64,000 nt of DNA. Source: Erysipelotrichales bacterium (GTDB lineage: Bacteria > Bacillota_I > Bacilli_A > RF39 > UBA660). Where the stretch lies: NCBI GenBank assembly GCA_022508565.1, contig JAFLUY010000001.1, positions 124,001 to 188,000 on the forward strand, read 5' to 3'. The position numbers and the translations under genes are program-made. Positions 31,166-62,806 of the stretch are shown piece after piece. Below the pieces are notes generated by a model. That model had not been told where the DNA came from. It saw only the letters and a list, made by a program, of their open reading frames with translations, and did no database searches. The stretch's first letter is position 1, and each line of letters starts with the position of its first letter.

Positions 31166-31194
31166 TTGACAAAAATAGGCCAAACTACTATAAT
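31166..31194 (+). promoter_or_regulatory. Consensus sigma-A promoter of the hisS operon
   Basis: TTGACA (31166-31171), 17-base spacer, TATAAT (31189-31194): a perfect consensus promoter that feeds the T-box leader. Confidence 0.95.
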
Positions 31195-31200
31195 AAAGTT

Positions 31201-31397
31201 AACTTTTGTGGGGAAGACCCGACTTAATAATTAAATATGAAAGAGAAGGCTAGATGGTGGAAATGCCGCATATGTATTATTTTGATAACACTTCCAGAAA
31301 ACAAAACGCTTGTAGCGATAAAACAAATGAAGAGTACCTATGTAAAGTAAGGTGGCACCGCGGATTCGTTCGTCCTTACATTATGTAGGTTTTTTTA
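31201..31397 (+). ncRNA. T-box leader with AACAC specifier region
   Basis: A tRNA-sensing leader of about 200 bases. Stem I base: GGAAG (31212-31216) with CTTCC (31291-31295). Above the specifier loop, AATAAT with ATTATT. The distal part AAGAGAAGGCTAGATGGTGG has the AGAGA and GATGG elements. The T-box AAGGTGGCACCGCGG is at 31349-31363. The specifier side reads TTGATAACACTTCC; helix limits place AAC (Asn, 31287-31289, followed by A) as the codon, but the overlapping CAC (His, 31289-31291) is also possible. Uncharged tRNA would stabilise the antiterminator. A 17-base near-complementary pair (31336-31352 with 31374-31390) forms the terminator stem. The operon needs His, Asp and Asn charging. Confidence 0.93.
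31336..31397 (+). terminator. Conditional terminator of the T-box leader
   Basis: ACCTATGTAAAGTAAGG pairs with CCTTACATTATGTAGGT with three mismatches or wobbles, followed by seven T. It encloses the T-box sequence, so antiterminator and terminator compete. Confidence 0.85.
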
Positions 31398-31415: not shown

Positions 31416-32666
31416 ATGATAACAAAACAAAAAGGAACAAATGATATCTACGGGGAAGCTGCAAAAAAACGCGCATATGTTAATGAAATACTTGCAACAT
31501 TATGTGAAAAATACAATTATGGTTATATTGAAACGCCGGTATTTGAAGCAAGTGAATTATTCCATAGAGGCGTTGGCGAAACAACCGATATGGTTCAAAA
31601 AGAAACATATGATTTTAAAGATAGAGGAGATAGAGACTTAACCCTTCGTCCAGAAGGAACAGCTCCTGTTGTAAGATGGTTTATTGAAAATAAGTTATAT
31701 GGAAATATGACAGATCCAGTAAAAGTATTTTATAACATGAAAATGTACCGTTATGAGCGCCCTCAAAGTGGACGTATGAGAGAATTAACTCAATGGGGAT
31801 TTGAATGTTTTGGTTCTGATGAAGTAATAAGTGATGCTGAAGTTATTTCTCTTGCCTATAATGCTTATCGTCTTTTAGGTTTAGATGATGTAGTAGTTGA
31901 ACTTAATACTCTAGGAGATACCGAATCGAGAAGTAATTATCGCGAGGCTCTAGTTGAATATTTTAAACCGCATATTAAAGATTTATGTGAAGACTGCCAA
32001 GAAAGATTTGAAAAAAATCCCTTAAGAATATTAGATTGTAAAGTGGATGCTGGTAATGATATTTTAAAACATGCTCCTAAAACCATTGACTATTTAAACG
32101 AAGAAAGTAAAGCAAGATTTGAAAAATTAAAAGATTTACTTGAATTAATGGATATCAATTATGTTGTAAATACAAATCTTGTTAGAGGTCTAGATTATTA
32201 TAATCACACTGTTTTTGAAATCTCACTTAATGGTTCATATGCCTTAGGTGGTGGTGGAAGATATAATGGTTTAGTTGAAACATTAGATGGTCCATCAACA
32301 CCAGCAGTTGGTTTTGCTATGGGTCTAGATAGAACTATTATGGCTATGGAAGAAAATGGTGTAAACATTCCAATCAATGATTCAATAGATTTATATATTC
32401 TTTATGTATCTGATACTGAACAAGAAACAGCAGCGTACCTTACTCAAGATTTAAGATTAAATGGTTTTATTGTTGAAACTGATTCGATGAAAAAGTCATT
32501 AAAAGCACAATTTAAAAGCGTTGATAGATTTAATTCTAAATATTTAATTGTTTTAAATGAAGAAGAGTTAAAAACAAATAAAGTTACAATAAAAGATAAT
32601 AAAACAAAAGAAGAAGAACAAGTAAGTTTAAATGATATAGCAGATTATTTAGATATGCATATGTAA
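31416..32666 (+). CDS. hisS: Histidyl-tRNA synthetase
   Basis: Class II synthetase charging tRNA(His). 416 residues. N-terminal QKGTNDIYGE and motif 2 MYRYERPQSGRMRELTQWG (about 109-127), His-specific LVRGLDYYNHTVFE (about 248-261) and ALGGGGRYNGLVE (about 268-280) motifs, followed by the anticodon-binding domain. First gene of the T-box-controlled operon; spaced 11 bases from the next gene. Confidence 0.98.
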   Translation: MITKQKGTNDIYGEAAKKRAYVNEILATLCEKYNYGYIETPVFEASELFHRGVGETTDMVQKETYDFKDRGDRDLTLRPEGTAPVVRWFIENKLYGNMTDPVKVFYNMKMYRYERPQSGRMRELTQWGFECFGSDEVISDAEVISLAYNAYRLLGLDDVVVELNTLGDTESRSNYREALVEYFKPHIKDLCEDCQERFEKNPLRILDCKVDAGNDILKHAPKTIDYLNEESKARFEKLKDLLELMDINYVVNTNLVRGLDYYNHTVFEISLNGSYALGGGGRYNGLVETLDGPSTPAVGFAMGLDRTIMAMEENGVNIPINDSIDLYILYVSDTEQETAAYLTQDLRLNGFIVETDSMKKSLKAQFKSVDRFNSKYLIVLNEEELKTNKVTIKDNKTKEEEQVSLNDIADYLDMHM

Positions 32667-32677
32667 GGAGAATAAAT

Positions 32678-33967
32678 ATGGAAAGAATTTTAATTAATAA
32701 TTTAGAAGAAGAAAAAGAAGCTCGCATTAGTGGCTGGGCTGAAAAAATAAGAGATACTAAATATATGATTTTTGTAATTCTAAAGGATCGCACTGGTTCT
32801 ATACAGGTATCTATTGATAAAGAAAATAACAAAGATATTGTAGCATCTCTCGAAGGAGTACTTGCTAATTCAGTTTTAACATTCACAGGTAAAATGGTTA
32901 AAAGTGAATATGTAAAACAAGGAGGTAAAGAATTTTTACCAGTTAGTGTTGAAATACTTTCATCTGCAGAAGGACTACCAATTGATGAAACAGCAAATAT
33001 TGATACTCGTTTAGATTATCGTTGGATTGATTTAAGAAGTAGAAAAAATAATTTAATGATAAATGTTCAAACAGCATTTGTTGATGGTATGCGTTCTTTT
33101 CTAATTAGTGAAGATTTTACAGAAATTCATACGCCAAAATTGATTGCAACAGCTTCTGAATCAGGTTCAGATGTATTTGAAGTAAAATATTTTGACCGTA
33201 AGGCTTATCTTGCTCAAAGCCCACAATTTTATAAACAAATGGCAATGGCTGCTGGATTTGAAAGAATATTTGAAGTAGCTCCAGCATTTAGAGCAGAAAA
33301 TTCAAATACTAATAGACACACAACCGAGTTTACATCATTTGATTTAGAATTTTCCTATATAGATTCTTTTGAAGATGTAATGGATATGGAAGAACGTCTA
33401 ATTATTGCCGGTTTAGAGAATGTTAAAGAAAAATATGAGAATGAAATAAAAGAAGTATTTGGCGTTGATATCGTTATTCCAACGCGACCATTCCCAAGAG
33501 TTAAACTTCCTGATTTATATCAAGAACTTGCTAAACGTTATGATTATAAAATACCTGAACATGATATTGGTGATATGAATGCTGAAGCAGAAAAATTAAC
33601 TAGTCGTTATGCAATGGAAGAATTTGGACACGAATTTATCTTTGTCACAGACTTTGCTAAAACAAAGAGGGCATTCTATCATATGAGAAAAGATGATATT
33701 CCTCAAGGATATGACCTTATTTGGAAGGGTACAGAAATTACAACTGGTGCACAAAGAGAACATCGTTATGAATTAATAAAAAAACAAGCAGAAGAAAAAG
33801 GTTTAGGAAAAGATGTTGAATTCTACATTGAATTCTTCCGTTATGGTTGTCCTCCACACGGTGGCTTTGCAATTGGAGTAGACCGTTTAACAATGCTTTT
33901 ATTAGGGCTTCCAAGTTTAAAAGAAGAAATGTTTATATTTAGAGGTCCAAGTAGATTAACTCCTTAA
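32678..33967 (+). CDS. aspS2: Archaeal-type aspartyl-tRNA synthetase (probable tRNA(Asp/Asn) type)
   Basis: 429 residues, class IIb. An N-terminal OB fold (ARISGWAEKIRDTKYMIFVI) precedes a catalytic core with TASESGSDVFEVKYF, LAQSPQFYKQ, RAENSNTNRHTTEF and FFRYGCPPHGGFAIGVDRL. The short length and lack of the large GAD insertion mark it as archaeal-type, unlike the 584-residue bacterial AspRS encoded 1.4 kb downstream. In Clostridia such a second AspRS is non-discriminating and makes Asp-tRNA(Asn), which GatCAB amidates; gatCAB lies in this same operon. Known specificity residues of the archaeal enzyme (Trp versus His, and Lys versus Pro, in the OB fold) are replaced by other residues, so specificity is inference. 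Confidence 0.9.
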   Translation: MERILINNLEEEKEARISGWAEKIRDTKYMIFVILKDRTGSIQVSIDKENNKDIVASLEGVLANSVLTFTGKMVKSEYVKQGGKEFLPVSVEILSSAEGLPIDETANIDTRLDYRWIDLRSRKNNLMINVQTAFVDGMRSFLISEDFTEIHTPKLIATASESGSDVFEVKYFDRKAYLAQSPQFYKQMAMAAGFERIFEVAPAFRAENSNTNRHTTEFTSFDLEFSYIDSFEDVMDMEERLIIAGLENVKEKYENEIKEVFGVDIVIPTRPFPRVKLPDLYQELAKRYDYKIPEHDIGDMNAEAEKLTSRYAMEEFGHEFIFVTDFAKTKRAFYHMRKDDIPQGYDLIWKGTEITTGAQREHRYELIKKQAEEKGLGKDVEFYIEFFRYGCPPHGGFAIGVDRLTMLLLGLPSLKEEMFIFRGPSRLTP

Positions 33968-34010
33968 TTTTTTAGAAAGGGAATTTATTATTCTATAAAT
34001 GGTGATTTAT

Positions 34011-35372
34011 ATGGATTTAATTGATTTATTTAAAAATAAACAAATTGGTGAGAATGTAACTGTTGAAGGTTGGATTCGCAATCATCGTGATCAAAAGAAT
34101 TTTGGCTTTATTGATTTTTCAGATGGAACATGTCAAGAACATCTGCAAATTGTTTATGATGATAGTTTACCTAATTTTGATGAAATAAAAAAACTATTAG
34201 TGGGTTGTGCAATTGAAGCTAGTGGAACTATCATCGAATCAAAAGGTAGCCAAGATATCGAATTACAGGCAACAAGCATTAAAATACTAGGCACTTGCCC
34301 AAGTGATTATCCACTACAAGCAAAAGGTAGACCAACTCGTGAATTTTTAAGAGAAATTGCATACCTTAGACCTAGAACAAATTTATTTCAAGCTGTTTTT
34401 CGCGTTAGAAGTATAGCAGCTTATGCCATTCACAAGTATTTTCAAGAAAGAGGATATGTCTATTTCCATGCACCAATTATAACAGCAAGTGATTGCGAAG
34501 GTGCAGGAGAAATGTTCCAAGTTACAACTCTTCCACTTGATGAATTAAAAGGCAAGTTAGATTATACGAAGGATTTCTTTGGTAAACTTGCAGGATTAAC
34601 CGTAAGTGGCCAATTAGAAGCTGAGACATTCGCCTTAAGTTATAAAAAAACATATACTTTTGGGCCGACTTTTAGAGCAGAAAATTCCAACACAAAAGTT
34701 CATGCCTCAGAATTTTGGATGATTGAACCAGAAATGGCTTTCTGTGATTTGGAGGGTGACATGGATGTTATGGAAGATATGCTAAAATATGTTGTTAAAT
34801 ATGTTTTAGATAATGCTCCGCAAGAAATTGATCTATTTGATAAATTTGTTGAAAAAGGCCTAAAAGAAAAACTAGAAAGACTTGTAAATAGCGAGTTTAC
34901 TAGAATTGATCATAAAGATGTAATAACTATATTAAAAAAAGCTAATGTTGAGTGGGAATTTGAACCAGAGTATGGTCAAGACATTGCTAAAGAACACGAA
35001 AAATATATTACTGACTATTTTAATGGACCAGTATTTATTAAAAACTGGCCAAAAGATATAAAAGCATTTTATATGAAACAAAACAGTGATAATGAAACAG
35101 TAGCTGCCGTTGATCTAGAAGTCCCAGGTGCTGGTGAATTAATGGGTGGATCACAAAGAGAAGAAAATTATGAAAAACTATTAAATCGCATGGAAGAGCT
35201 TAATATGGAAACATCTGCTTTAGATTGGTATTTAAATTTAAGAAAATATGGAGGATGTGTTCATTCTGGATTTGGAATGGGATTTGAAAGACTTCTTATA
35301 TATTTAACAGGAGTTGAAAACATAAGAGATGTAATACCATACCCAAGAACACCAGGTAACTGCGATTATTAA
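34011..35372 (+). CDS. asnS: Asparaginyl-tRNA synthetase
   Basis: 453 residues, class IIb, charges tRNA(Asn) directly. N-terminal OB fold (VTVEGWIRNHRDQKNFGFID), core motifs FLREIAYLRPRTNLFQAVF, GEMFQVTTL, FGPTFRAENSNTKVHASEFW (about 220) with MIEPEMAF, which is AsnRS rather than AspRS, and a C-terminal GFGMGFERLLIYLTG. ATG 34011 follows weak signals; the in-frame start at 33999 is less likely. It provides a second way of making Asn-tRNA(Asn) beside aspS2 plus gatCAB. Confidence 0.96.
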   Translation: MDLIDLFKNKQIGENVTVEGWIRNHRDQKNFGFIDFSDGTCQEHLQIVYDDSLPNFDEIKKLLVGCAIEASGTIIESKGSQDIELQATSIKILGTCPSDYPLQAKGRPTREFLREIAYLRPRTNLFQAVFRVRSIAAYAIHKYFQERGYVYFHAPIITASDCEGAGEMFQVTTLPLDELKGKLDYTKDFFGKLAGLTVSGQLEAETFALSYKKTYTFGPTFRAENSNTKVHASEFWMIEPEMAFCDLEGDMDVMEDMLKYVVKYVLDNAPQEIDLFDKFVEKGLKEKLERLVNSEFTRIDHKDVITILKKANVEWEFEPEYGQDIAKEHEKYITDYFNGPVFIKNWPKDIKAFYMKQNSDNETVAAVDLEVPGAGELMGGSQREENYEKLLNRMEELNMETSALDWYLNLRKYGGCVHSGFGMGFERLLIYLTGVENIRDVIPYPRTPGNCDY

Positions 35373-35388
35373 AAGAGAGGGGATATTA

Positions 35389-37143
35389 ATGAATAAATTT
35401 CGTACACATTATATAGCTGATATAGATGATTCTTTAATATCAGAAAGTATTGTTGTAAGTGGTTGGGTTGAAAATATACGTGACCATGGTGGAGTTTTAT
35501 TTTTAGATTTAAGAGATGAAACAGGTACTTTACAAACTGTCTCAAATGATGATGATATGTTTAAAGGAATTGCTAAAGAATCTGTTGTAAAATTAACTGG
35601 AAAATTAAGAAAAAGAGATGAAGGGACTGAGAACGAACGACTAACCACCGGTTCATTAGAATTAGTTGTTGAAACTCTAGAAATGTTAGGTGAATCAGTT
35701 CACGAACTTCCTTTTGATATTATGACATCTAAACAAACAAAAGATGATGTTCGTCTTAAATATCGTTATTTAGATTTAAGAAATGAATCAGTTAAAAACA
35801 ATATTAAACTTCGTGCTGAAATCTTACATTTTTTACATAATAAAATGTACAATCTAGGATTCACACAAGTTCAAACACCGATATTAACAGCATCATCTCC
35901 AGAAGGAGCAAGAGATTTTGTCGTACCATCAAGACTTTTTAAAGGAAAATTTTATGCTTTACCACAAGCACCACAAATCTATAAAGAGTTGCTTATGGTA
36001 GGCGGTTTAGGAAAATACTACCAAATCGCGCCTTGTTTTAGAGATGAAGATGCAAGAGCAGATAGAACATTAGAATTTTACCAATTAGACTTAGAAATGA
36101 GTTTTGTTGAAGAAGAAGACATATTAAATGTTGGTGAAAGTATTTTCTATGATACATTTACTAAATTTTCTAATAAAAAGGTAACAAAACCACCATTTAG
36201 AAGAATAGCTTATCGTGATGCGATTGACTTATATGGAACTGATAAACCAGATTTACGTAATCCATTGATAATTAAAGATGCAACAAAAGTACTAGAAAAT
36301 ACAACATTTGGTCCGTTTAAAAACTCTATAATAAAAACAATTGTTGTCCATGATATAGGAGAGTATTCTAACTCTTGGTTTAATGAATTAGTAGATTACG
36401 CATCTTCAATTGGTATGCCAGGAATTGGTTATATAACACTTATGGAAGATGGCTCATTAAAAGGACCAATAGATAAGTTCTTATCTGAAGAAGAAAGAAC
36501 CAACTTGATTAACGAATTTGGAATGAAGACAAATTCTGTTATGTTCTTTATTGCTAATAAGAGACTAGCAACCGCACAAAAGTTTGCAGGTCTTATTCGT
36601 GATGAGTTAGGACGTAAATTAAATCTATTAGATCCAAATAAACTTGAATTATGTATAATCAATGATTTTCCAATGTTTGAATTAGATGAAACAACAGGCA
36701 AATATGATTTCTGTCATAATCCATTTAGCATGCCACATGGAGGAATCAAAGATTATGAAAATAAGAAACCAGAAGAAATATTAGCATATCAATATGACTT
36801 TGTATGTAATGGAAATGAAATGGCAAGTGGAGCAATAAGGAACCATGATTTAGATTCATTAGCAAAAGGATTTGAAATAGTAGGATATTCGCGTAGTGAA
36901 GTAGAAGAGAGATTCAAATCAATATTCACAGCATTTAAATATGGATGTCCACCACATGGAGGAATGGCACCAGGTATAGATAGATTAATTATGTTAATCC
37001 AAGATGAACCAAACTTAAGAGAAGTACAAGCCTTCCCACCAAACGCATCAGGAGTCGACTTAATGATGGGTTCACCAGCAACATTACAACCTGAACAACT
37101 TCGTGAATTAGGAATAGAAATTAAGGGTGATGAAGATGAATAG
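35389..37143 (+). CDS. aspS: Bacterial-type aspartyl-tRNA synthetase
   Basis: 584 residues with the bacterial layout: OB anticodon domain (VVSGWVENIRDHGGVLFLDL), class II core with ARDFVVPSR, FYALPQAPQIYKELLM, and a large GAD insertion (about 275-410), then the C-terminal box YGCPPHGGMAPGIDRL and the ending FPPNASGVDLMMGSPA. Charges tRNA(Asp). This is the normal housekeeping enzyme; the 429-residue enzyme upstream is the extra one. gatC begins inside its last codons. Confidence 0.98.
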   Translation: MNKFRTHYIADIDDSLISESIVVSGWVENIRDHGGVLFLDLRDETGTLQTVSNDDDMFKGIAKESVVKLTGKLRKRDEGTENERLTTGSLELVVETLEMLGESVHELPFDIMTSKQTKDDVRLKYRYLDLRNESVKNNIKLRAEILHFLHNKMYNLGFTQVQTPILTASSPEGARDFVVPSRLFKGKFYALPQAPQIYKELLMVGGLGKYYQIAPCFRDEDARADRTLEFYQLDLEMSFVEEEDILNVGESIFYDTFTKFSNKKVTKPPFRRIAYRDAIDLYGTDKPDLRNPLIIKDATKVLENTTFGPFKNSIIKTIVVHDIGEYSNSWFNELVDYASSIGMPGIGYITLMEDGSLKGPIDKFLSEEERTNLINEFGMKTNSVMFFIANKRLATAQKFAGLIRDELGRKLNLLDPNKLELCIINDFPMFELDETTGKYDFCHNPFSMPHGGIKDYENKKPEEILAYQYDFVCNGNEMASGAIRNHDLDSLAKGFEIVGYSRSEVEERFKSIFTAFKYGCPPHGGMAPGIDRLIMLIQDEPNLREVQAFPPNASGVDLMMGSPATLQPEQLRELGIEIKGDEDE

Positions 37144-37435
37144 TAGTTTTACACCAGAAAAAGTAGAAAAATTAGCAGATCTTTTAATGATTGGTTTAAC
37201 AGAAGAAGAAAAACAAATGGTATTTGATGAATTTGAAGTAATTGATGCAAATATTAATAAACTAAATGACATCGAAAACCTAAAAAATGTTGAACCAATG
37301 ACGCATGCATTAGATGATTTTAAATGTGTATTAAGAGAAGATGTTGCAGAAGAATCAATTCCATTAGATGAGTTACTTGAAAACTGCGATGATACAGAAG
37401 ATGGACAAGTATCAGTGCCAAAGGTGGTGGGATAA
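37136..37435 (+). CDS. gatC: Asp/Glu-tRNA amidotransferase subunit C
   Basis: 99 residues. Small subunit wrapping GatA and GatB; stabilises the complex. Helical N-terminus FTPEKVEKLADLLMIGLTEE and the central linker MTHALDDFKCVLREDVA (the usual xPMTHxxx...LREDxx block), then LLENCDDTEDGQVSVPKVVG. ATG 37136 overlaps aspS by 8 bases and follows AAGGGTGA. gatA starts on its stop codon (TAATG). Confidence 0.92.
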   Translation: MNSSFTPEKVEKLADLLMIGLTEEEKQMVFDEFEVIDANINKLNDIENLKNVEPMTHALDDFKCVLREDVAEESIPLDELLENCDDTEDGQVSVPKVVG

Positions 37436-38892
37436 TGAAATATATGGATAAAGATATTGAAACACTACATAATTTGTTGAAAAATGGTGAAGTTACAAGT
37501 GAAGAACTAGTTAAAGAATCACTTGAACTAAGTCATGAGGTACAAGAAAAGTGTAATGCCTTTGTTACTATCTTAGATGACCAATTAGGTGGTAATGTTA
37601 CAGATGATTTATTATCAGGTATTCCTTTTGGTATTAAAGATAATTATTCGACAAGAGGAATACTTTCCACTGGATCATCTAACACTTTAAAAGATTATGT
37701 ACCATTCTTTGATGCGACTGCAATTAAGAATTTATATGCTCATGGAGCCGTACCTGTTAATAAAACTGTATTAGATGAATTTGGAATGGGTGGAACAGGA
37801 ACAACTGGACACACTGGTGTTGTTAAAAATCCATGGGATCAAAACAGAATGACTGCCGGATCATCAGCTGGATCAGCTGCTGCTGTTGCTGCTGGAGTGT
37901 ATCCATACGCATTAGGAAGTGACTCAGGAGACTCAATTCGTAAACCTGCCGGATATTGCGGAATAGTTGGTTATAAACCAACATATGGAATGATTTCGCG
38001 CTATGGTTTATTTGCTTATGCATCTAGTTTAGATCATTGTGGAGTTTTAACTAGAAATGTAAAAGATGCTGCAATTGTTGTTGATGCAATGAAGGGTATA
38101 GATCCTAATGACATGACATCCTGGGATTCAAGCCATATTCATCTTAAAGACGATTTAAATAACGATGTTAAAGGTAAAAAATTATTTTATATTAAAGAGC
38201 TTTGCGATATAGAAAACTATCCTAATGCAAATGATGAATTAAAATCTCATTTGGAGAATTTTAAAAACACATTAAAAAAATGCGAAGAGCTTGGTATGAG
38301 TGTTGAAGGTGTTTCTATTGACCAAAAACTATTAAATGCTTTACCAGCTGTCTATGTTGTAATAGCTTGCGCTGAAGCGACTAGTAATATGTCTAATTTA
38401 ACAGGATTTATCTTTGGCCCTCGTGGTGAGGGAAGCAATTATGCAGAAATGATGAAAGACCATCGTACAAAAGGTTTTTCTCCATTAATTAAACGTCGTT
38501 TTATAATTGGATCTTATGTATTACAATCTGAAAATCAAGAAAGATATTTTAGAAATGCTCAAAGAGTTAGAAGATTAATAGTTGATGCAATAAAAGAACA
38601 ATTTAAAACCTATGATGGTTTAATTATGCCAGTTGGAACTGGTCCAGCTAAATCATTTGATGGAAGTGACAACATGTTAAAACAAGATGCAGAGACTCTA
38701 GAAGAGCAATTACAAATTGGTAACTTCGGAGGGTTCCCTTCAATTACGATACCAAATGGATTTGTAAATGGGTTACCTGTAGGAATAAATATTACAGGAA
38801 ATTGCTATGATGACCAAAATGTTTTAAATATGGCTTATGCTTTAGAGGGAACTATGGAATATAAAAATCAAATTGCAAAGGAGAATAAGTAA
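37435..38892 (+). CDS. gatA: Asp/Glu-tRNA amidotransferase subunit A
   Basis: 485 residues, amidase-signature enzyme releasing ammonia from Gln. The triad can be placed: Lys in [11 protein letters not shown] (about 65-75), cis-Ser in [14 protein letters not shown] (about 141-154), nucleophilic Ser in [13 protein letters not shown] (about 165-177). The canonical sequences GGSSGGS and TGGSIRQP are altered to AGSSAGS and SGDSIRKP, so the signature is diverged though the catalytic residues remain. C-terminal block [13 protein letters not shown] is normal. It pairs with gatB (TAATG overlap). Confidence 0.96.
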
Positions 38893-40334
38893 TGGGTAAA
38901 TATAATGTTACAATCGGACTTGAAATGCACTGTGAAATTTCCGAAACTAATTCAAAAGTATTTTCAAGCGCTAAAAACTCTTATTCAGATGTTGCAAATT
39001 CAAATATTAGACCATTAGATATGGGGTTTCCTGGAACTCTTCCAGTTTTAAATAAAGAAGCTGTAAGAATGAGCTTGATGATGAGTCAAATCTTAAATTG
39101 TCGTCAACCAGAATACATGTACTTTGAAAGAAAAAATTACTATTATCCTGATATGCCTAAAAACTATCAAATAACTCAAAATCCGCCAGAAGATTGTGTT
39201 GGTATGAATGGCTATATTGATATTATTAGAGATGACGGATCTACATTTAGAGTAGGAATAGATAATATTCACTTAGAAGAAGATGCTGCAAGTATGAATC
39301 ACTTATATGATACATCAGTAATTGATTATAATCGTGCAGGAGTTCCATTGCTTGAACTTGTTACTGAACCATGTATCAAATCAGCTGATGATGCAGTATC
39401 ATTCTTAGAGTATATTAGAGCGGTTTATCAGTATTGTGGTATATCAGAAGCAGATTCTAAAAAAGGTCAAATAAGGTGTGATGTAAATGTTTCTATATCA
39501 GAAGATGATAAACTTGGAACTAAAGTAGAAATTAAAAATGTTAACTCGTTTGGCGGAGTTCATGATGCAATCATCTACGAAATTAAAAGGCAAAGTGAAC
39601 TTAAAGATGCTGGACGCTATGATGAAGTAGTTCAAGAAACCAGAAGATATGACGAAGAGTCTGGTACAACTATTCATATGCGTAGTAAAGTTGATGCAAT
39701 TGATTATAAATACTTTGTTGAACCAAATATTCCAAGATATAAGATATCAAAAGAATGGTTAGACGAAATAAGAAATAGCATTCCAGAATTACCATATGAA
39801 AGAAAAGAAAAATATATAACTTCATATGGTTTATCAGATTATGATGCTGCTATACTTATTAAGGATATAAATATTGCTAAATATTTTGAGAAATGTATTG
39901 AATTATCAGTCGATGCCAAAACTGCCGCAAACTGGATTATAAGCAATATTTTAGGATATACTTATAAATATGAAATAGATATTCAAGATTTATTCTTAAC
40001 CCCAGAAAGATTAAGTGTTATTACAACTTCTGTTAAAGATGGTAAGATTTCTTCAAAACAAGCTAAAGAATTATTCTTTATGGTTCTTGAACAAGAGAAA
40101 GATCCTGATGTAATTATGAAAGAAGTTGGAATGCAACAAATAAGTGATGATGGTGCAATAATATCTGTAATTAAAGAAGTATTAGTTGAAAATCCTAATC
40201 AAATAGCAGAATACAAAAATGGTAAAACAAATATGTTTGATTATTTCGTTGGTCAAGTAATGAAAAAGACTCGTGGTCAAGCAAATCCTGTTAAAGTTAA
40301 AGAAGTATTAACAGAAGAATTAAGTAAGATGTAA
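38892..40334 (+). CDS. gatB: Asp/Glu-tRNA amidotransferase subunit B
   Basis: 480 residues. Binds the mischarged tRNA, activates the side-chain carboxylate with ATP and accepts ammonia from GatA. IGLEMHCEISETNSKVFSS (about 7-25), MGFPGTLPVLNKEAV (about 45-59), YYYPDMPKNYQITQ (about 85-98), then SGTTIHMRSKVDAIDYKYF, here noted by its MRSKED-like block, and the helical tail ending in GQVMKKTRGQANPVKVKEVL. Last gene of the operon; a terminator overlaps its stop codon. Confidence 0.97.
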   Translation: MGKYNVTIGLEMHCEISETNSKVFSSAKNSYSDVANSNIRPLDMGFPGTLPVLNKEAVRMSLMMSQILNCRQPEYMYFERKNYYYPDMPKNYQITQNPPEDCVGMNGYIDIIRDDGSTFRVGIDNIHLEEDAASMNHLYDTSVIDYNRAGVPLLELVTEPCIKSADDAVSFLEYIRAVYQYCGISEADSKKGQIRCDVNVSISEDDKLGTKVEIKNVNSFGGVHDAIIYEIKRQSELKDAGRYDEVVQETRRYDEESGTTIHMRSKVDAIDYKYFVEPNIPRYKISKEWLDEIRNSIPELPYERKEKYITSYGLSDYDAAILIKDINIAKYFEKCIELSVDAKTAANWIISNILGYTYKYEIDIQDLFLTPERLSVITTSVKDGKISSKQAKELFFMVLEQEKDPDVIMKEVGMQQISDDGAIISVIKEVLVENPNQIAEYKNGKTNMFDYFVGQVMKKTRGQANPVKVKEVLTEELSKM

Positions 40335-62717: not shown

Positions 62718-62806
62718 TGTTTGTAAGTCTTTCTTACGAACCGCACTAAAAAGGTTAAAAAGTTGGTTTACCACACCTTCAAGGCGAGTCTTCAAAAAAA
62801 TTATAA
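62718..62806 (+). ncRNA. L21 leader of rplU
   Basis: The leader contains the conserved parts of the Firmicute L21 leader: ACGAACCGCAC, AAAAGG, and AAGGCGAG before the ribosome binding site TAAGGAGG. It allows L21 to regulate rplU-prp-rpmA. Confidence 0.8.

Follow-up and report, generated by a model that had tools for sequence, protein, structure and literature searches.

T-box leaders of the textbook design form the 5' strand of their terminator from the 3' strands of antiterminator helices A1 and A2, carry a conserved purine directly 3' of the specifier codon, and hold Stem III within an RRRxG-Stem III-AA motif; in T-boxes with a short Stem I, the specifier has been described in the apical loop (PMC7583486). 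Reading of more than one tRNA has been proposed before: a T-box sensing both tRNA-His and tRNA-Asp was suggested for hisS-aspS in a 2009 review, as relayed in PMC4342826, so the idea of dual reading is neither new nor peculiar to the locus described here. A two-codon T-box, for Asn and Glu, is known experimentally in Clostridium acetobutylicum (PMC4052509); the preliminary description of our locus was right that such a T-box exists, and the partner of Asn is corrected to Glu from that source.

The leader studied here lies in a window of 64,000 nucleotides (the whole stretch of DNA analyzed) from an uncultured member of the Bacilli. The relatives in the HisRS comparison that bear names include Candidatus Aphodocola, Onthousia, and Pelethosoma, the first two of which are Bacilli incertae sedis in NCBI. 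The promoter, with its 12/12 match, predicts a transcript start at about 31201, and the leader precedes a seven-gene operon in the order hisS, archaeal-type aspS, asnS, bacterial aspS, gatC, gatA, and gatB, named with NCBIfam models (Table 1). The Rfam model RF00230 matches the leader at E 8e-11 with 52.3 bits, short of its gathering score, 93. The T-box leader proposed in the preliminary description is confirmed, as is an operon that begins with hisS and contains Asp/Asn genes. The same genome holds nine T-boxes with E < 1e-9, plus two weak matches. The second operon position holds an aspS of archaeal type in some genus members and of bacterial type in others, and the second aspS and asnS substitute for one another across species (window 32678-37143; loci L075-L082).

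Table 1. Features of the hisS leader and its operon, with one further RNA element of the window
Feature	Position	Strand	Basis or remark
Sigma-A type promoter TTGACA-17-TATAAT	31166..31194	+	12/12 consensus match
T-box leader	31201-31397	+	transcription-terminating class
Stem I	31204..31306	+	RNA fold; lower helix covaries across family
Stem I base helix TTTTGT/ACAAAA	31204-31209/31301-31306	+	fold
Stem I lower helix GGAAG/CTTCC, five pairs	31212-31216/31291-31295	+	fold and family covariation
Stem I upper helix AATAAT/ATTATT	31226-31231/31276-31281	+	fold
Stem I upper helix ATATG/CATAT	31235-31239/31269-31273	+	fold
Double T-loop motifs AGAGA, TGGAA	31242-31246, 31258-31262	+	sequence; motif per PMC7583486
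Specifier AAC (Asn)	31287..31289	+	Asp/Asn codon and 3' purine in 62/62 family leaders
CAC (His) triplet overlapping the specifier; judged a by-product	31289..31291	+	C31291 pairs with G31216
Conserved purine 3' of specifier	31290	+	A in 59, G in 3 of 62
Small hairpin CGCT-TGT-AGCG at Stem IIA/B position	31307..31317	+	sequence, fold
Stem III, TAC 31335-31337/GTA 31342-31344	31330..31346	+	RRRxG-StemIII-AA motif (PMC7583486), sequence
Terminator	31336..31396	+	fold z -3.2; arm-exchange test
Terminator outer helix ACCTATGTAA / TTATGTAGGT	31336-31345/31381-31390	+	encloses antiterminator
Antiterminator	31347..31379	+	Rfam alignment, fold
Antiterminator A1	31347-31352/31374-31379	+	Rfam alignment, fold
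T-box bulge TGGCACC, N = C31356	31353-31359	+	Rfam alignment, fold
Antiterminator A2	31360-31362/31371-31373	+	Rfam alignment, fold
U tract	31390-31396	+	terminator end
hisS, histidine--tRNA ligase	31416..32666	+	TIGR00442, 467.9 bits
aspS, archaeal-type, aspartate--tRNA(Asn) ligase family	32678..33967	+	NF003483, 444 bits
asnS, asparagine--tRNA ligase	33999..35372	+	NF003037, 607 bits
aspS, bacterial type	35389..37143	+	NF001750, 689 bits
gatC	37127..37435	+	TIGR00135, 63.2 bits
gatA	37435..38892	+	TIGR00132, 418 bits; below cut-off 481, best hit
gatB	38892..40334	+	NF004012, 561 bits
Ribosomal protein L21 leader	62728-62801		RF00559, 41.8 bits, above gathering

With the transcriptional class of RF00230 the leader shares a specifier in a side bulge of Stem I, the double T-loops (apical AGAGA and UGxRA motifs), a purine after the specifier, a purine string at Stem III, a 7-nt UGGNACC bulge, a closing G-U pair, and a U tract. 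Stem III, flanked by AAGAG on its 5' side and AA on its 3' side as in the RRRxG...AA motif, lends its strands to the 5' arm of the terminator as well. The leader differs from that class in its apparently degenerate K-turn, where the base of Stem I has, at the expected place, an asymmetric internal loop (GG/AGAAA) without the canonical tandem G-A, and in its reduced Stem II, of which sequence and fold reveal no full form. The AAC triplet is unpaired in the RNA fold. Folded alone, Stem I is no more stable than its shuffles (z 0.18), so that its support is comparative. Reading the specifier from the Rfam alignment was rejected: the covariance model misplaces Stem I, setting the apical loop where the specifier strand lies, and the earlier placement by hand is therefore preferred. 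T-boxes with an ultrashort Stem I were also seen, in a tyrS leader of the same genome (L009, about 1480-1560) and in five hisS leaders (L038, L098, L182, L196, and L210); each carries its specifier (TAC or GAC) in the terminal loop of a bare hairpin, after which come an antiterminator of normal form and a transcription terminator.

The specifier strand reads GAT-AAC-A-CTTCC, in which AAC and CAC overlap by one base. The preliminary description, whose letters and coordinates for this strand are exact (AAC 31287-31289, CAC 31289-31291, ATTATT 31276-31281, and CTTCC 31291-31295), proposed that one leader might sense tRNA-Asn, tRNA-His, or both. We compared 62 distinct side-bulge leaders from the same bacterial family, 61 before hisS and one before aspS (L090). 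An Asp or Asn codon occurs in all of them (GAC 47, AAC 14, GAU 1), a count that is partly built in because the leaders were parsed through an R-A-C search with some codon positions corrected by hand; this search does not predetermine the 3' purine or the loss of CAC. CAC is present in 32 leaders and absent from 30 (CAC or CAU in 47), and a purine follows it in a single one. Covariation places the last base of CAC, base 5, at the start of the helix that lies under the specifier loop. When base 5 is left out and the helix register is set from the deeper pairs alone, it is Watson-Crick complementary to its 5' partner in 37 of 62 leaders (G-C 21, A-U 15), against 22.1 after shuffling (0/20000 as high). 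Since the third base of CAC opens the lower helix, the triplet appears whenever RAC and an A precede a C-G pair; RACAC (AACAC or GACAC) is common in hisS leaders of Bacilli. Half of the 14 AAC leaders read AACAC, all seven from the window's genus, and the other seven read AACAA, AACAT, or AACGC; one relative has GATAC, in which the Asp codon is kept and CAC destroyed. Thus, the leader displays a specifier, then a purine, above a covarying helix.

We favor, with a probability of roughly 85%, the reading that this T-box responds to one tRNA, tRNA-Asn (anticodon GUU), through AAC and UGGC. Comparison of sequences supports the specifier register, the bulge match, the covariation of the terminator arms, and the association with Asn genes, and from these we infer that tRNA-Asn would be bound. 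The UGGC bulge, which is UGGU in the other eight classified T-boxes of the genome, complements G73 of its tRNA-Asn and mismatches C73 of its tRNA-His, which has an encoded G-1. As tRNA-Asp also has G73, the discriminator match moderately favors Asn or Asp over His; the case against His is only moderate because C73 of tRNA-His pairs with G-1 and the T-box database (TBDB) skips the discriminator criterion for His. UGGG was rejected as a positive control for His T-boxes: across 198 genomes from the class, AAGGTGGGACCGCG turned up a single time, in a leader that looks degenerate by eye and does not lie upstream of hisS. On contig C2 of genome G000 (L053, L057), tRNA-Met, tRNA-Pro, and a second tRNA-Asn have no encoded CCA, unlike the other tRNAs read, and are possibly of phage or contaminant origin.

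Could the same loop bind tRNA-Asn by AAC and, once the G31216-C31291 pair opens, tRNA-His by CAC, so that sensing serves hisS as well as the Asn genes? The overlap of the two codons occurs here and in seven of the genus's eight AAC leaders, the operon starts with hisS, and dual reading has been suggested for His/Asp and exists for Asn/Glu (PMC4342826 and PMC4052509). Such a T-box is nevertheless improbable: relatives do not retain both codons, CAC being missing from 7 of 14 AAC leaders and from 30 of 62 overall, its third base belongs to the covarying helix, it is without a 3' purine in 61 of 62 leaders, and UGGC mismatches C73. Of the preliminary proposal, the Asn part thus stands, with the expected purine after the codon, and the His and dual parts do not; the comparison of orthologous leaders that it put forward as a check found an Asp/Asn codon in every leader and CAC unconserved. 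That CAC alone is read and AAC is accidental would suit the position of hisS at the head of the operon, but it is scarcely credible when seven relatives keep AAC and lose CAC and others use GAC or GAU, including the GATAC leader. The tandem GAT-AAC (GAC-AAC in G006) might serve Asp and Asn together, as GA(T/C)AAC occurs in six of the eight AAC leaders of the genus and tRNA-Asp and tRNA-Asn share G73. We rejected this candidate, which we judge very improbable, because the tandem is not retained in two genus members, G004 (GTTAAC) and G007 (ACTAAC); GA is also the usual flank above the specifier, and the three-base shift exceeds the one-base shift by which the C. acetobutylicum codons reportedly overlap. 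The latter T-box, of a transamidation operon, shares with our leader the Asn specifier and GatCAB in the operon, but the second codon is not conserved here and there is no overlapping Glu codon.

Bacillaceae hisS-aspS T-boxes resemble the leader described here in having hisS at the head of the operon, a RACAC strand, and commonly a UGGC bulge, and are unlike it in their textbook terminator and their operon without Asn genes. Since CAC is found in 35 of their 37 parsed leaders, the case against a His reading is weaker in that group. In Bacillaceae and allies (L123-L174), AAC leaders stand before hisS-aspS operons that lack Asn genes, all 26 that were parsed being AACAC; they may read Asn, His, or both, and they are evidence against the Asn-only reading of our leader.

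How the Asn specifier arose is indicated by the relatives. Those of the family with plain hisS-aspS operons have GAC, and asnS or two aspS genes are found in the operons of 13/13 AAC leaders versus 9/40 GAC leaders (Fisher 6e-7, uncorrected for relatedness; a leader was omitted where its contig was too short for the operon to be judged). The HisRS tree shows six changes between AAC and GAC, four of them forced by well-supported branches, and of the independent pairs, four are supported, with a mean of 2.6 in the predicted direction and 0 in the opposite one, which is too few for significance. Because hisS-aspS relatives carry GAC, and AAC comes only with asnS or a second aspS, the leader is probably an Asn T-box whose ancestor was a GAC (Asp) T-box controlling hisS-aspS. 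A G-to-A change at the first specifier position would have turned GAC into AAC, in connection with the recruitment of Asn-tRNA genes, and hisS would have been carried along. The link is not strict, since the genus member G002 reads GAC although its operon retains asnS and gatCAB. G224, from the window's clade, has a GAC leader and asnS elsewhere in the genome. AAC is retained in the genus members G001 and G008, in which no asnS was found; two aspS genes accompany gatCAB in the G001 operon, and the AAC there fits tRNA-Asn sensing, with supply expected via Asp-tRNA-Asn. Bacterial GatCAB reportedly requires U1-A72 for Asp-tRNA-Asn. We rejected the 1-72 pair of tRNA-Asn as an indicator of the indirect route, as every tRNA-Asn found has G1-C72 and offers no contrast; G1-C72 occurs also at L243, L244, L246, and L249 (genomes G293, G233, G232, and G282), where no AsnRS/asnS was found.

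The terminator departs from that of the RF00230 transcriptional class: it is built from the Stem III strands and not from the 3' strands of A1/A2, and since its arm at 31381-31390 pairs with the Stem III strands at 31336-31345, it encloses helix A1. The textbook hairpin, a usual though not strictly defining feature that this leader does not have, amounts on its own to -3.4 kcal/mol here (family median, -1.0; Bacillaceae, -15.9). Of 67 family leaders classed by the position of the 5' terminator arm, 36 have it in Stem III or farther upstream, 29 have it in the T-box 5' strand, and 2 have it at the textbook position; in Bacillaceae, the terminator is of the textbook kind in 41/44 leaders. The classes were taken from the computed fold, by which single leaders may be misfiled. 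When arms were exchanged among the 36 leaders, own arms gave -9.46 kcal/mol and swapped arms -5.12 (0/20000 as good); the terminator arms covary. The nine T-boxes of the source genome comprise five of the Stem III form, two of the T-box-strand form, and two that use the A2 5' strand. In L083, L095, L100, and others, the 3' arm of the terminator complements the T-box 5' strand itself (e.g., AAGGTGGCAC/GTGCTACCTT), so that the off state would mask the UGGN bulge. The searched literature, which covered a minority of the primary T-box papers, gave no earlier description of a terminator that captures Stem III, and its novelty is provisional.

In the mechanism that we propose, uncharged tRNA-Asn would pair with AAC through its anticodon and with UGGC through its GCCA end. 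The bound tRNA would hold Stem III and the antiterminator together, and transcription would continue into hisS-aspS-asnS-aspS-gatCAB. With charged tRNA-Asn, the Stem III strands would pair with the downstream arm, extending the base of the antiterminator into a long terminator hairpin.

Three tests may settle claims of overlapping codons in T-boxes: whether a purine follows on the 3' side, whether the last base pairs in the helix, and whether relatives have lost the codon. They can also be applied to the His/Asp reading that has long been suggested for operons of hisS-aspS. We also consider it fairly likely that this uncultured Bacilli family has a switch point unlike the textbook one, in which the terminator takes up Stem III or the T-box strand and, in the Stem III form, A1 persists in the off state. 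The choice made by the tRNA would then lie between Stem III and the outer helix, and not between alternative partners for the 3' strand of A1/A2, and specifiers would have switched between Asp and Asn repeatedly, along with operon content. The altered terminator is a natural variant for asking how docking of Stem III governs the on/off decision.
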